Origin: Gemmatimonadetes bacterium 2013_60CM_65_52
GTDB lineage: Bacteria > Gemmatimonadota > Gemmatimonadetes > Gemmatimonadales > Gemmatimonadaceae
NCBI GenBank assembly: GCA_002215645.1
Contig: NGFI01000005.1
Span: 240,678 to 304,677, forward strand
Direction: 5' to 3'
Length of the DNA: 64,000 nucleotides
Positions 1,674-9,385 of this stretch are shown piece by piece (position 1 is the first letter of the stretch; every line of letters begins with the position of its first letter). Below the pieces are notes generated by a model that was given only the letters and a program-made list of their open reading frames with translations, made no database searches and was not told the origin of the DNA. The translations under genes were made by a program, and so were the position numbers.

Positions 1674-4196
1674 ATGACCTCCCCAAACCGGCTCGGCCGT
1701 TCGGCTGCGTCCGCCATGCGGGCGGCCATCGCCATGGCGCGAGGCAACGAGGTCTGCTTCGTCTGCTCGCTGGACGCCGAGGGCGTGGTGGAGACCGCAC
1801 GAGTGGTCGCCCGCGGCAACGTCGAAAGTGTGCTCGCCCTTCCCGGATTTGCGCGGCGCGGCGAAATGCTCGTCCACAACCACCCCTCCGGGCTGCTCGA
1901 ACCAAGCGACGCGGACTATTCCGTGGCCGCCCGAGTTCACGATGACGGCATCGGCTTCGGGATCATCGACAACACCGCGCAAGACCTCTACGTCGTCGTC
2001 GAGATTCCGCATGCGCGGCGACAAACGGCGCTCGATCCCGTCAACATCGAGGGCGACCTCGGGCCCGGCGGCGCGATTGCCGGGCTGCACACGCGCTATG
2101 AGGATCGTGCGAGTCAGCGCGCCATGGCGTCCACGATCGCGCGGATCTACAACACGGGAGGCGTTGGCCTGCTCGAGGCGGGAACCGGCGTCGGAAAGTC
2201 GCTCGGCTATCTCGTGCCCGCGCTGCGCTGGGCCGCGGCTAACGGCGAGCGAACGGTGGTGTCGACGAACACGATCAACTTGCAGGAACAGCTCGTCGGC
2301 AAGGATCTGCCGTTTCTGGCGCGTGCGCTCTCGGACCAGAAGGTCCGCTTTGCGCTCCTGAAGGGCTGGCGCAACTACCTTTGCCTGTCGCGTCTCGATC
2401 AAGCGTCTGACGGCGCGGCGCATCTCTTCGATGACGGGCAAGCCGGCGAACTGGCGTCGCTCGCGCAGTGGGCGGCCCGAACGAGCGATGGGTCGCTGGC
2501 GGACCTCCCCACTCCACCCAGAGCGGAAGTGTGGGACGAAGTCTCGGCCGAGCCCGACGTGTGCACGCGGGTGAAGTGCACGTACTTCGACAAGTGCTTC
2601 GTGTTCAAGGCGCGCCGGGCCGCCGCGGAAGCCGACGTCATCGTCGTGAATCATCATCTGCTGCTGTCCGACCTTGCTGTGCGGCGCGCCGCGCAGAACT
2701 GGGAGGACGCCGCCGTTCTGCCCGCGTACGGACGGCTCGTCATCGATGAGGGACATCATCTCGAGGACGCGGCCGCATCGCACCTCGGCTGCACGGTGAC
2801 GCGGCGCGGACTTCAGCGGCTCGACAGCCGGCTCGACCGGCGCGGCAAAGGTTTGCTTCCGGCGCTTGCCGCGCGGCTTGCCGCCAAGCGCGATCTGCTC
2901 AGCTCCGCCAGTCTCGATCTCGTGGAGACTCGCCTCGCGCCCGCCGTTGCCGAGCTGCGCGAAAAGAGCGGCCTGCTGTGCGACCTTCTGGAAACGTGGC
3001 TCTCGACGCAGGGTGGAACCGTCGTGCGCCTGACGCATGCATTTGCGAGCGACGCGATCTGGCAGCAAGGACTCTCCGTGGCACTTCAGGGGACGCTCGG
3101 CGCCATCGAGCAGCAGCGGCAGGGACTCGAGCTCATTCGCGAGCGCATCGAGGGCAGCGAATCACTGGAGGAGGAGTTTGCGCCGCTTCTGAACGAGCTG
3201 CGCGGAGTCACGCGACGTCTTCAGACGCTCGGCGACGGTCTCGGTCGCGCACTGGCGCCGCCGCCCGACGACGACAGCATCCGCTGGATCGAGCTCCGCG
3301 GGCGAGAGCGCACCATCGCCATATCGAGCGTTCCGCTGGACATGGCGCCCATTCTGCGCGACGACCTGTTCAAGCGCCTCCAGAGCGCCATCGTCACCAG
3401 CGCGACGCTCACCGCATCGGCGGGGGACGTCGCCGCACGCTCTCGGCGCTTCGATTTTCTTGCGTCGAGGCTGGGACTCGACGACGCCTCGCTCACGCCG
3501 ACGACCGCGGTATTTCCGTCACCGTTCGATTTTTCGACGCAGGCGCGACTCGTCGTCCCCACCGACATTCCCGCGCCCAACGTGGATGCCGACGGGCATC
3601 GACGTGCGGTGACGCAAATAGTGCTCGACGTCGCCGATGCGTCCAACGGCGGACTGTTCGTCCTGTTCACGAGTCATCGCGAGGTGAAGCAGCTCGCGGC
3701 GGAGCTGCGCAGCCGCGGCGTGGATCGACGCTGGCCCCTGCTCGTGCACGGCGAGGAGAGCCGTGACGTCCTCCTCGATCGCTTTCGCGAGGCGGGGCAG
3801 GCGGTGCTCGTCGGCACCGCGTCGTTCTGGGAGGGTGTGGACGTTCCGGGCGATGCGTTGCGAGGGCTCGTGATCGCGAAGCTGCCGTTCCGTGTCCCCA
3901 CGGAGCCCGTCACCGCGGCGCAATGCGAAGCGATCGAAGCGCGAGGCGGCAATTCGTTCGCCGAGTACATGCTGCCGCACGCGTCGCTGCGGCTGAAGCA
4001 GGGATTCGGGCGACTCATCCGGACGTCCACGGATCGTGGGGTGGTCGTCGTGTGCGATCCGCGGCTCGTTTCCAAGCAGTACGGCCGCGGCATGCTCGAT
4101 GAGCTTCCGCCAGCGCGTCGCGAGATCGGCCCGTGGAGCAGGCTGCGCGACGGTATTCGCGCGTTTTATGGGACGGAGAGCACGGTGCCAGGCTAG
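1674..4196 (+). CDS. dinG: DinG/XPD-like DNA helicase with N-terminal RadC-type JAMM domain
   Basis: This 840-residue protein is a fusion. Residues 1-110 form a RadC/JAMM-type domain with a complete metal motif: E26, then H68-N-H70-PSG, S78 and D81, which fits HxHx7Sx2D. From about residue 130 it is a superfamily 2 XPD/DinG 5'-3' helicase. It shows Walker A AGTGVGKS (169-176), an Fe-S cluster set C237, C297, C302 and C308, the DEGH box at 358-361 and the motif VI-like QGFGRLIRT near the end. DinG proteins unwind D-loops, R-loops and forked DNA during repair. The JAMM half suggests a linked hydrolase or structural role, but RadC-type activity is itself unsettled. The start ATG follows a modest purine stretch (CAGGGG). 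The next gene begins 8 bases after the stop. Confidence 0.9.
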   Translation: MTSPNRLGRSAASAMRAAIAMARGNEVCFVCSLDAEGVVETARVVARGNVESVLALPGFARRGEMLVHNHPSGLLEPSDADYSVAARVHDDGIGFGIIDNTAQDLYVVVEIPHARRQTALDPVNIEGDLGPGGAIAGLHTRYEDRASQRAMASTIARIYNTGGVGLLEAGTGVGKSLGYLVPALRWAAANGERTVVSTNTINLQEQLVGKDLPFLARALSDQKVRFALLKGWRNYLCLSRLDQASDGAAHLFDDGQAGELASLAQWAARTSDGSLADLPTPPRAEVWDEVSAEPDVCTRVKCTYFDKCFVFKARRAAAEADVIVVNHHLLLSDLAVRRAAQNWEDAAVLPAYGRLVIDEGHHLEDAAASHLGCTVTRRGLQRLDSRLDRRGKGLLPALAARLAAKRDLLSSASLDLVETRLAPAVAELREKSGLLCDLLETWLSTQGGTVVRLTHAFASDAIWQQGLSVALQGTLGAIEQQRQGLELIRERIEGSESLEEEFAPLLNELRGVTRRLQTLGDGLGRALAPPPDDDSIRWIELRGRERTIAISSVPLDMAPILRDDLFKRLQSAIVTSATLTASAGDVAARSRRFDFLASRLGLDDASLTPTTAVFPSPFDFSTQARLVVPTDIPAPNVDADGHRRAVTQIVLDVADASNGGLFVLFTSHREVKQLAAELRSRGVDRRWPLLVHGEESRDVLLDRFREAGQAVLVGTASFWEGVDVPGDALRGLVIAKLPFRVPTEPVTAAQCEAIEARGGNSFAEYMLPHASLRLKQGFGRLIRTSTDRGVVVVCDPRLVSKQYGRGMLDELPPARREIGPWSRLRDGIRAFYGTESTVPG

Positions 4197-6006: not shown

Positions 6007-6827
6007 CGCGACGATCGCCCGGTGCGCTGCTCGCGTCCATCGCGGTCCACGTCGTCGTGGCCGCGCTCATTCTCAATGCGGCGTTCCACTACGACTTCTC
6101 GCACGGCAACACGGCCATCTACAGCGCGCCGAGGCGGGAGCACGTCACGTTCATCAATGCGGCGCCGGCGGGTGGCGTCACCGGAGGAACCGACTCCGCG
6201 AGCATGCCGGCGCGCGCGAAGACTCCGACTCCGGGGCTGGTGGCACCATTACGCGTGCCGACCGCCGTCGCACCCGTGTCCGTTACGGGCGGCCGCGAAG
6301 GCGGTGCCGAAGGAGGACGCGGCATCTCCCGAGAGGCCGACGCAGCGGCGGGTGTCGTCCCCCGCCTTCCCGATCCTCGTCTCACCAACGATCCGCACGC
6401 GTTTCTGCCGCTGCCGAAGACGCACGCCGAGCGCGTGGACAGCGCGGTGCGTGCGGCGATTTACGCGTACAACGATTCGGTTGCACGAGCGGCTGGCCTC
6501 AAGGGCAAGGAGCCGGGCGACTGGACGTTCGAGAAGAATGGCCAGAAGTGGGGAATCGATGGAAACAAGATCTATCTGGGCAAGTTCGCCATTCCGAGCG
6601 CAGTGCTGGCTGCGCTACCGATTCACATTCAGGGGAATCCCGGCGAAGGGCTGAGCGATCGTCTCGCGCCGTCGCGCCGCGCGGATCTCATGCTGCACGC
6701 GGAGTCGCAGTTTCACGACGATGAGTTCAATGCGGCGGTGAAGCGCATTCGCGAGCGCAAGGATCGGGAGCGGCGCGATCGGCAGAACGACGGCAACAAG
6801 CCATCGGCGGGGCCTGACGTTCCGTAA
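6003..6827 (+). CDS. TonB-like N-terminally anchored protein of unknown function
   Basis: This 274-residue protein begins at GTG 6003 inside the aminotransferase stop (GTGA). One hydrophobic N-terminal segment (ALLASIAVHVVVAALILNAA) follows a short basic head, as in TonB-type anchors. A Gly/Ala/Pro-rich linker follows (about residues 50-115), then a polar C-terminal half with TFEKNGQKWGIDGNKIYLG and a charged Arg/Lys/Asp tail. The topology predicts a periplasmic domain held at the inner membrane. The open frame extends far upstream inside the aminotransferase, but that part is a GC-rich shadow. No family is recognised. Confidence in the gene rests on the overlap, the membrane anchor and reading-frame quality. 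Confidence 0.7.
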   Translation: MTRRSPGALLASIAVHVVVAALILNAAFHYDFSHGNTAIYSAPRREHVTFINAAPAGGVTGGTDSASMPARAKTPTPGLVAPLRVPTAVAPVSVTGGREGGAEGGRGISREADAAAGVVPRLPDPRLTNDPHAFLPLPKTHAERVDSAVRAAIYAYNDSVARAAGLKGKEPGDWTFEKNGQKWGIDGNKIYLGKFAIPSAVLAALPIHIQGNPGEGLSDRLAPSRRADLMLHAESQFHDDEFNAAVKRIRERKDRERRDRQNDGNKPSAGPDVP

Positions 6828-6984: not shown

Positions 6985-7656
6985 TTAGCTGACGATCGGA
7001 TTCTCGCCGGTTATGGGCAGCAGGGGAGCAGGTGCCGCGTGCTCGCCGAAGGGGCGAAACACTCCACACACGACGCCGAGCACCGCGAAGTCGTCGCGAG
7101 GTCCCACCTCGATGGGCCGGTTCGTCTCGTTCGCTGATTCGAGTACGATGGTAGCGCCCCGATGCATGAGCGTGCGGATCACAGCGCCGTCAGCGAGACG
7201 GGCGGCCACGATGTCGCCGTCCTTGGCACGTGTGGATGGCGACACGAGCACGTAATCCTCGTCCAGGATGCCGCGCCCAAGCATGGCTTCGCCGGTGTTG
7301 CGGAGGTAGAAGACGTCGTCGCTGGGCAGGAAGCGGCGGTCCATCGTGATGTAGCCAGAGCGGTTGTCCGGCGCGAGCGGCGGCTCGGCGGCGACCACCC
7401 GCGCGAAGAGCGGCACGGGCTGCGTGCTGGCTTGCCCGGAGTGCCCGACGATGCGCACGCCGCGCGACCGCGACTGGTCGCGCTCGATGAAGCCTTTCTG
7501 CGACAGCGAGCCCAGGAGATCGCTGACCGTTTTTGTAGACTTTATGCGAAACTTCTTCGCAATTTCGCGAATGCTTGGCTGGTAGGTGTTCTCAGCCAGG
7601 AAATCGATGAGGTAGTGATAGACCCGGCGCTCCAGCGGTGTGAGGGGCTCGGTCAT
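6985..7656 (-). CDS. lexA: LexA-family repressor lacking self-cleavage residues
   Basis: The 223-residue protein has the LexA layout. It begins with a winged-helix domain (residues about 5-70, with TPLERRVYHYLIDFLAEN and PSIREIAKKFRIKS), followed by a linker and an S24-type C-terminal domain. Aligned by eye to E. coli LexA, the Ala-Gly scissile bond is Ala89-Ala90, the nucleophile Ser119 is Ala124 (NTGEAMLGRGI), and the general base Lys156 is Arg161 (DGAVIRTLMHRG). All three elements needed for RecA-stimulated autocleavage are therefore changed. It should still bind DNA and dimerise, so it may be a constitutive or differently controlled repressor rather than the SOS switch. It is single-copy in this window and sits upstream of gltX on the same strand. 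A palindrome lies just before its start. Confidence 0.85.
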   Translation of the reverse strand: MTEPLTPLERRVYHYLIDFLAENTYQPSIREIAKKFRIKSTKTVSDLLGSLSQKGFIERDQSRSRGVRIVGHSGQASTQPVPLFARVVAAEPPLAPDNRSGYITMDRRFLPSDDVFYLRNTGEAMLGRGILDEDYVLVSPSTRAKDGDIVAARLADGAVIRTLMHRGATIVLESANETNRPIEVGPRDDFAVLGVVCGVFRPFGEHAAPAPLLPITGENPIVS

Positions 7657-7683: not shown

Positions 7684-7771
7684 TTCAAGCGTCGGTCCCT
7701 GCGGGCGAGCGGTTTCCGGGGAAGGTGCGCCAAATGTACCCTCTCTCGGACCCTTCGCAACACTTGTTTCG

Positions 7772-9241
7772 TCAATCCGGCGTCGGCTCGTCCTGTCGTA
7801 GCCGCAGCAGGGCCGCTTCCAGCCGCTGTTGAGCTCGCTTCCTGCCGAGCACGACCAGGACCTCGAAGATGCCGGGGCTCACCGCGCGGCCCGTCAGGGC
7901 GACACGGAGGGGCTGGTAGAGCTTGCCGGGCTTCTCCACCAGGTCGAGACGCGCCGCCAGCTGGTTCAGCGCTGCCTCGGTCGACGTCAAATTCCACTCC
8001 GTAAGCGGAGACAACACCTCGAGCGCCCCGCGAAGGATGGCCTCCGTGAGCGCGCGATCCTTCCACTGCTTCCGCACCGCCTCGGCGTCAAGCTCGATCT
8101 GCTCATTGAAATACGGTGCCGCCTGCCAGACGATCTCGTCGATCGTGCGCGACCGAACCTTCAATAGCTCCAGAAGCGAGAACACCCATTCGCGGCGCGC
8201 CATGATCTCTTCGGCGGAGCCGTAGCCGGCGGCGACGAGCGCCGGCAACGCGCGCTGCAGCAGCTCGTCCGGCGAGATGAGCGCGAGGTGCTGTCCGTTC
8301 ATCCACTCCAGCTTCTTGAGATCGAATATCGCTGCGCGCTTCTGCAACCCGCTCGGATCGAAGAGCTCGATCATCTGCTCGCGCGACATCACCTCGATGT
8401 CGTTGCCCGGCGCCCACCCGAGCAGTGCGAGGAAGTTCATCATCGCGCTCGGCAGGATGCCGAGGTGCTGGTAGTCGCCCACCGCGGTTGCGCCGTGCCG
8501 TTTGCTGAGCTTCTTGCCATCCATTCCGTGGATCATCGGCAGGTGCGCGAACACCGGCAGCTCCGCACCCAGTGCGCGATACAACTGAATCTGTTTCGGC
8601 GTGTTCGAGATGTGGTCGTCGCCGCGCATGACGACCGTGATGGCCATCGCGATGTCGTCGCTCACCACGGCCAGGTTGTAGATGGGCGTGCCGTCGGTGC
8701 GGAGGACGATGAAGTCCTCGATGTCCTTGTTCAGGAACGCGATCGTGCCGTGCACGAGATCGTCCCAGCTCGTGGAACCTTCGGGGACGCGGAAGCGCAC
8801 CGTGAAGGGCATGCCCGCCGCTACGCGGCGCTCCACCTCCACGCGGTCGAGCCGATCGCATCGGCGGTCGTACTTGAATGCGGCGCCCGCCGCCTCGGCC
8901 GCCGCACGGCGTTGCGCCAACTCCTCCTGCGTGCAGAAGCAGCGATACGCCGTGCCATTCGCGAGCATGCGCTGCGCGTCCGCGCGGTGCCGCTCGAGAT
9001 TGGCGCCCTGGTGCACCACAGGCTCGTCCCACTCGAGGCCGAGCCACTGAAGGCCTTCGAAGATGGCGCGCGTGCTCTCTTCGGTGGAGCGCGCCTTGTC
9101 AGTGTCCTCGACGCGGAGCAGGAACTGTCCGCCGAATTTTCGCGCGTAGAGCCAGTTGAAGAGCGCCGTGCGCGCGCCGCCCACGTGGAGGTATCCGGTG
9201 GGCGACGGAGCGAAGCGGAGGCGCGGAACGCTGGGGGCCAT
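7772..9241 (-). CDS. gltX: Glutamyl-tRNA synthetase
   Basis: This class I aminoacyl-tRNA synthetase attaches glutamate to tRNA-Glu in the cytoplasm. The 489-residue length is normal. The ATP-binding HIGH region appears as SPTGYLHVGGARTALFNWL (near residue 12), with FLLRVEDTDKARST following. The KMSKS loop appears as KKLSKRHGA near residue 250, and the all-helical anticodon-binding domain fills the C-terminus. No second gltX is visible, so whether it is discriminating or also charges tRNA-Gln cannot be told. Downstream on the same strand is the LexA-like gene. The synthetase begins just after the terminator of the tRNA-Ser(GCT) gene. Confidence 0.97.
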   Translation of the reverse strand: MAPSVPRLRFAPSPTGYLHVGGARTALFNWLYARKFGGQFLLRVEDTDKARSTEESTRAIFEGLQWLGLEWDEPVVHQGANLERHRADAQRMLANGTAYRCFCTQEELAQRRAAAEAAGAAFKYDRRCDRLDRVEVERRVAAGMPFTVRFRVPEGSTSWDDLVHGTIAFLNKDIEDFIVLRTDGTPIYNLAVVSDDIAMAITVVMRGDDHISNTPKQIQLYRALGAELPVFAHLPMIHGMDGKKLSKRHGATAVGDYQHLGILPSAMMNFLALLGWAPGNDIEVMSREQMIELFDPSGLQKRAAIFDLKKLEWMNGQHLALISPDELLQRALPALVAAGYGSAEEIMARREWVFSLLELLKVRSRTIDEIVWQAAPYFNEQIELDAEAVRKQWKDRALTEAILRGALEVLSPLTEWNLTSTEAALNQLAARLDLVEKPGKLYQPLRVALTGRAVSPGIFEVLVVLGRKRAQQRLEAALLRLRQDEPTPD

Positions 9242-9295: not shown

Positions 9296-9385
9296 CGGAG
9301 AGAGAGGGATTCGAACCCTCGATAGAGGTTGACCCCCTATGCCGGTTTAGCAAACCGGTGCCTTCAGCCTCTCGGCCATCTCTCC
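9296..9385 (-). tRNA. tRNA-Ser (anticodon GCT)
   Basis: The minus strand folds as a class II tRNA. The 7-bp acceptor stem is GGAGAGA with TCTCTCC, and the discriminator is G. The D-arm has GGCCGAGAGGCTGAAGGC, the anticodon loop is TTTGCTAAA, the variable arm is long, as expected for serine, and the T-arm has GGGTTCGAATCCC. CCA is not encoded. Confidence 0.95.

Follow-up and report, generated by a model that had tools for sequence, protein, structure and literature searches.

The lexA2 gene and its lost cleavage residues

The window (the whole 64,000-nucleotide stretch of Gemmatimonadaceae DNA that was analyzed) contains a minus-strand gene, termed lexA2 here, that lies next to the glutamyl-tRNA synthetase gene gltX (Table 1). 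The reading frame is a real gene, as its 223-aa product scored 153.8 bits against TIGR00498, the LexA equivalog model (curated cutoff, 110.95), and contained in the same chain a winged helix-turn-helix (HTH) DNA-binding domain (PF01726; 55.4 bits against a cutoff of 23.7, 5e-15) and the S24/LexA C-terminal fold (PF00717; 77.4 bits, 9e-22). With both domains present, the protein is a member of the LexA family. The gltX gene was found immediately 5' of lexA2 and on the same strand in all 115 distinct Gemmatimonadaceae orthologues, and the order tRNA-Ser, gltX, lexA2 recurred, with tRNA-Ser(GCT) preceding gltX in most of the loci that were read far enough. On the 3' side, a convergent plus-strand gene ending at position 6827 has kept its place across the family; its products are ~31 to 73% identical and have no Pfam match. 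Elsewhere in the window, a plus-strand gene for a DinG-like helicase (positions 1674 to 4196) has, within its first ~110 residues, an HNHPSG...D stretch resembling the one in RadC/JAB proteins and, when read by eye, is an apparent fusion of a RadC/JAB-like stretch with a DinG-like helicase.

Table 1. Positions of lexA2, its neighbors and related sites (window positions unless a contig is given)
Feature	Position	Strand	Basis or remark
lexA2, LexA-family repressor paralogue without self-cleavage residues, 223 aa	6985..7656	-	TIGR00498, PF01726 + PF00717, predicted LexA fold
Former general base, Arg161 (CGC), Lys replaced	7174..7176	-	Alignment
Former nucleophile, Ala124 (GCC), Ser replaced	7285..7287	-	Alignment
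Former scissile site, Ala89-Ala90 (GCC GCC), Ala-Gly replaced	7387..7392	-	Alignment
Recognition helix of winged HTH, helix 41-53 (TKTVSDLLGSLSQ), S-T-K-T/S-V	7498..7536	-	Alignments; helix 41-53 in model
Putative own lexA2 promoter, -35 TTGCGA 7755-7760, -10 TACATT 7733-7738	7733..7760	-	Footprint alignment, conserved in genus
Palindrome AACACTTGTT overlapping -35 box, weak autoregulatory operator candidate	7759..7768	.	Motif recurs in lexA2 promoters
gltX, glutamyl-tRNA synthetase, immediately 5' of lexA2	7772..9241	-	115/115 family sequences
tRNA-Ser(GCT), upstream of gltX	9296..9385	-	Anticodon read in window
TTCGG-N6-TTCGG boxes of canonical lexA	G000:C13:917552-917591 (L198/L199)		25 further sites of the repeat elsewhere in genome (L174-L197, L200)

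Alignment with Escherichia coli LexA placed Ala84, Gly85, Ser119 and Lys156 of that protein opposite Ala89, Ala90, Ala124 and Arg161 of the window protein. An earlier note on this DNA had claimed precisely these replacements of the Ala-Gly site, the Ser and the Lys, and the alignment and the codons agreed with it in every detail. The window protein lacks both the scissile Ala-Gly (or Cys-Gly) bond and the Ser-Lys catalytic dyad of self-cleaving LexA. No Ser or Lys at a shifted position that might substitute at the active site was found in the alignment, which bears out the claim that all of the self-cleavage elements are lost; the C-terminal domain contains a single Lys, K145, and Ser is present at positions 100, 112, 139, 141 and 174. 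Eight close congeners (75 to 83% identical) align around the three sites, and seven of these have A-G, S and K while the eighth, L066, has A-G, S and R. As the window protein has lost all three cleavage elements, RecA-stimulated self-cleavage is not expected. The window derives from a single draft genome (14 contigs, 4.2 Mb), so a sequencing or assembly artifact was considered; this is hardly credible, however, given three separate changes within an open frame, the Lys-to-Arg change also present in the independently assembled L066 (76% identical) and the same kind of loss in dozens of other genomes.

A separate, intact LexA and a likely SOS box

A search of the genome for a second, intact LexA, which had been proposed in the earlier note, detected one on the same contig, ~670 kb from lexA2 (C13:917656-918255; 203.7 bits). 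This canonical LexA has kept every cleavage element (GAVAAG, GNSM and TVKKF) and has its own SOS-type box; A-G, S and K were kept in all 38 canonical LexA copies examined in the phylum. Most of the 150 Gemmatimonadaceae genomes searched had both lexA2 and canonical lexA, while genera g22 and g24 had canonical LexA only. Beyond the Gemmatimonadaceae, lexA2 orthologues were present in families f4, f5 and f6 of the same class, mostly beside gltX again, and most genomes of the order-mate families f2 and f3 were without the gene. On this sequence evidence, the window gene is a paralogue belonging to an orthologue group of its own (LexA2) and is not the SOS LexA. The reading of the earlier note, that of a non-cleavable LexA, therefore stands with respect to the three lost elements and cleavage but not with respect to the protein's identity, which is that of a gltX-linked paralogue rather than the SOS LexA.

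Canonical lexA promoters share a direct repeat, TTCGG-N6-TTCGG, that was detected in 31 of 31 extracted promoters and is usually present twice. None of the 115 lexA2 promoters contained this repeat, so that lexA2 does not carry in its own promoter the box that marks the SOS LexA of the phylum. The genome of the window contained 27 sites, compared to 1 for a reversed control pattern, and boxes were located upstream of lexA (two), recA, ruvB, the gene for a UvrD-family helicase, gyrB, the divergent ku/ligD pair and two radical-SAM genes, one of which appears to resemble the gene for spore photoproduct lyase. This gene set resembles an SOS regulon, canonical LexA is likely to bind the box, and TTCGG-N6-TTCGG is the likely LexA/SOS box now available for Gemmatimonadota; no published description of a LexA box for this phylum was found in the open-access literature. 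As the intact LexA has its own box, which also lies before recA, ruvB, uvrD and ku/ligD, SOS induction is probably normal, and the SOS response appears to be run by this separate protein and not by lexA2.

One further means by which LexA2 could influence the SOS response is by damping it, through heterodimers with canonical LexA or competition for its boxes. The two proteins share a fold and a dimer domain but are only 32% identical, the lexA2 promoter has no TTCGG box, and the residues at E. coli LexA positions 41, 44 and 45 are K, S and D as against A, H and E, all of which makes damping distinctly improbable.

Three minor observations concern the boxes. The Gram-positive LexA box, GAAC-N4-GTTC, showed no genome-wide enrichment (43 sites versus 36 for the control). 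The SOS-type box of gyrB, which would be an unusual SOS member, is ~40 nt before the start region (G000:C10:582585-582600; L194). The ku and ligD genes diverge around one box (L185, box at 1501-1516), whose placement suggests LexA-controlled non-homologous end joining.

Repeated loss of self-cleavage and constraint on LexA2

The complete A-G/S/K set was present in 41 of the 115 Gemmatimonadaceae lexA2 orthologues, and at least one element was missing in the other 74. On the best tree of these sequences the cleavage trait required ~9 changes, at least 5 of which were forced by well-supported branches alone, indicating that cleavage has been lost repeatedly. An alignment had been proposed in the earlier note as a way of determining whether the losses were common to the whole phylum; they were not, having arisen several times in a family in which many orthologues are intact. 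From the sequences we infer that the ancestral lexA2 was self-cleaving and that the direction was one of loss and not gain, because the cleavage residues are shared with canonical LexA. Lys was replaced by Arg in 65 of the 71 alignment rows without Lys, these rows not being independent events; this replacement keeps the charge and removes the base. The genus of the window is mostly intact. In L066, the nearest sequence in the tree, the Lys-to-Arg replacement is the sole change (AGSR), and this suggests, with moderate support (86), that in the lineage of the window Lys was lost first and the scissile site and Ser afterwards. Losses at the site with retention of the dyad were seen elsewhere (L068, PSSK; L069, ATSK; L124, AASK). 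The dyad was wholly or partly gone in all members read from families f4 and f5, and both f6 members were intact.

Relative to the cleavable congeners L064 (dS of 1.22) and L062 (dS of 1.12), codons 1 to 70 of the window gene had zero replacements (dN of 0.000), a pattern beyond chance because it was observed at dS values above 1.1, with silent sites close to saturation. The C-terminal domain of the window gene had dN/dS ratios of 0.10 to 0.23 (L064, 0.17; L062, 0.23), compared to 0.03 to 0.10 between intact congeners, all of these ratios being approximate because dS values above 1 are imprecise. Pairs of non-cleavable orthologues exhibited low dN/dS ratios in both domains, with C-terminal values of 0.0 to 0.3 except for one pair at 0.50. 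Evolution of the C-terminal domain was 2 to 3 times faster in non-cleavable lineages, an increase that partial decay would also give; judged by these ratios, the domain is relaxed yet constrained, and purifying selection persists. The recognition helix was near-invariant class-wide, even in proteins without the dyad, and was unlike the helix of canonical LexA. As the HTH has been held fixed, LexA2 probably binds what its cleavable orthologues bind. The combination of an unchanged N-terminal domain and the same loss occurring several times in relatives gives LexA2 the look of a working regulator that has been taken off the damage signal.

These data also bear on whether lexA2 is a decaying copy heading to a pseudogene, with the catalytic losses as ordinary decay. 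Such a process would be in keeping with the two- to threefold rise in C-terminal dN/dS, with the loss of much of the cleavage loop in some orthologues and with the loss of lexA2 from genera g22 and g24, but is improbable as the frame is intact, the N-terminal dN/dS stayed near 0 after the loss, all but one of the non-cleavable pairs kept their low C-terminal ratios and large clades have retained the non-cleavable copy.

An AlphaFold model of the window protein had a mean pLDDT of 85.9, and its top PDB matches were all LexA, with a TM-score of ~0.85 (by target length) to LexA C-terminal domains. The matches included LexA-DNA complexes and the S119A and G85D mutants (PDB 1jhh, 1jhf), laboratory non-cleavable forms that are changed at the same sites with the fold kept; the window protein differs from these in having been changed at all three sites together and by natural evolution. 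The model of a strongly decayed orthologue, L152, had a mean pLDDT of 89.8 and LexA structures as its best PDB matches, and PF00717 was recognized in 43 of the 45 members of the decayed lexA2 set. The window protein is, therefore, predicted to keep the LexA fold, and the C-terminal domain, being constrained and predicted to be folded, is probably still useful.

A C-terminal domain that is constrained and predicted to be folded after the loss of catalysis could also be explained by inactivation of LexA2 through another route (a separate protease, a ligand or modification), in which case the protein would be stress regulated and not constitutive. There are precedents in the LexA of Synechocystis (PMC7567884), in IrvR of Streptococcus mutans, which is controlled without RecA-driven LexA self-cleavage (PMC7101444), and in DdrO of Deinococcus, which is cut by the separate protease IrrE (PMC8072749). 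While LexA2 resembles IrvR and DdrO in being a repressor outside RecA-driven LexA self-cleavage, neither an IrrE-like partner nor any other partner or protease gene adjoins lexA2, whose flanks are gltX and the convergent gene without a Pfam match, and this route is considered possible but rather doubtful.

Proposed mode of action, related systems and the lexA2 promoter

Spacing from gltX differed between the two types of lexA2. All 41 cleavable genes were at least 65 nt from gltX, and many had their own TTGAC/TTGCG...TACATT-like promoter. A start within 45 nt of gltX was found for 49 of the 74 non-cleavable genes (many overlap by 4 nt) versus 0 of the 41 cleavable genes, a distribution that fits a move in part of the family from lexA2's own promoter to gltX-driven expression, although there are too few independent events behind it. 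The window gene has a 115-nt gap and has retained its own putative promoter.

The reading that we favor, with a probability of about 70%, is that LexA2 is a gltX-linked, ancestrally self-cleaving paralogue that is now a non-cleavable repressor with its fold kept, uncoupled from RecA and set by its level, with the SOS response left to the intact LexA. The sequences themselves show that the three elements are gone, that the gene is a paralogue with an intact LexA elsewhere in the genome, that its place next to gltX is conserved, that loss was repeated, that purifying selection acts and that the LexA fold is predicted. The S24 domain would be a pseudo-protease that remains folded and is probably still the dimerization module, while the winged HTH would continue to bind the operators of cleavable orthologues; fold and constraint agree with dimerization through the C-terminal domain and with operator binding. 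RecA* would no longer lift repression of LexA2 targets, and the amount of LexA2, determined by its own promoter or, in gltX-fused relatives, by gltX transcription, would set repression. The SOS response would fall to the other, intact LexA and its TTCGG-N6-TTCGG boxes. For the class as a whole, the chances are slightly better than even that a gltX-tied second LexA has undergone at least five parallel uncouplings from RecA and DNA damage, yielding a structurally kept pseudo-protease, usually by Lys to Arg, with a fixed DNA-binding specificity, so that related species share one regulon with and without damage induction.

Pseudomonas putida has, in addition to its main LexA, a second one, LexA2, whose operator is probably different. 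The LexA2 of Leptospira interrogans likewise stands beside a main LexA, probably with another operator, but it has kept the Ser, the Lys and a Cys-Gly site, which are absent from the window protein, and was depleted after UV (PMC3789691). In the LexA of Synechocystis sp. PCC 6803, the cleavage site reads Gly-Gly and the nucleophile is replaced by Asp (PMC3091678); this protein is non-cleavable and apparently acts as a repressor tuned by modification (phosphorylation) (PMC7567884). The window protein is like this LexA in having no Ala-Gly site or nucleophilic Ser and in not being the SOS regulator. In Synechocystis, however, one LexA with a changed role has been described, whereas the window protein is a paralogue accompanied in its genome by an intact SOS LexA; it has also lost the Lys, and loss of cleavage is seen again in many other lineages. 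No report of a gltX-linked LexA paralogue or of parallel loss of LexA self-cleavage was found in the open-access literature. Non-cleavable LexA proteins and second LexA proteins are known; what appears to be new is a paralogue that is linked to gltX, extends across the class and has lost cleavage in parallel.

These genes constitute a natural replicated experiment in which one transcription factor with one DNA-binding domain occurs with and without self-cleavage, a contrast available between close relatives (~80% identity) and repeated across several independent lineages. As cleavable and non-cleavable relatives exist, the shift of a damage-switched repressor to a constitutive or otherwise-sensed one becomes directly testable, as does the order of loss, with Lys first in the sister of the window and the scissile site first in others.

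A dyad search for an operator common to the 115 lexA2 promoters detected none, no target gene was found, and there was no obvious operator upstream of gltX, where the tRNA-Ser(GCT) gene lies. A search for a link to translesion polymerases detected only one Y-family polymerase gene (PF00817), which was without either box. The palindrome AACANNTGTT overlies the -35 box in 10 of the 115 lexA2 promoters, representing about four lineages and including the window, and may point to autoregulation; genome-wide it was not enriched (12 sites versus 11 for the control, mostly inside genes). Several lexA2 orthologues (L042, L043, L051, L061, L067, L075, L078, L083 and L157) have a strong G+C-rich inverted repeat (for example, GCCGGGCCCTC...GAGAGCCCGGC) between the promoter and the start codon, which differs in sequence but is similarly placed and is a possible leader hairpin.
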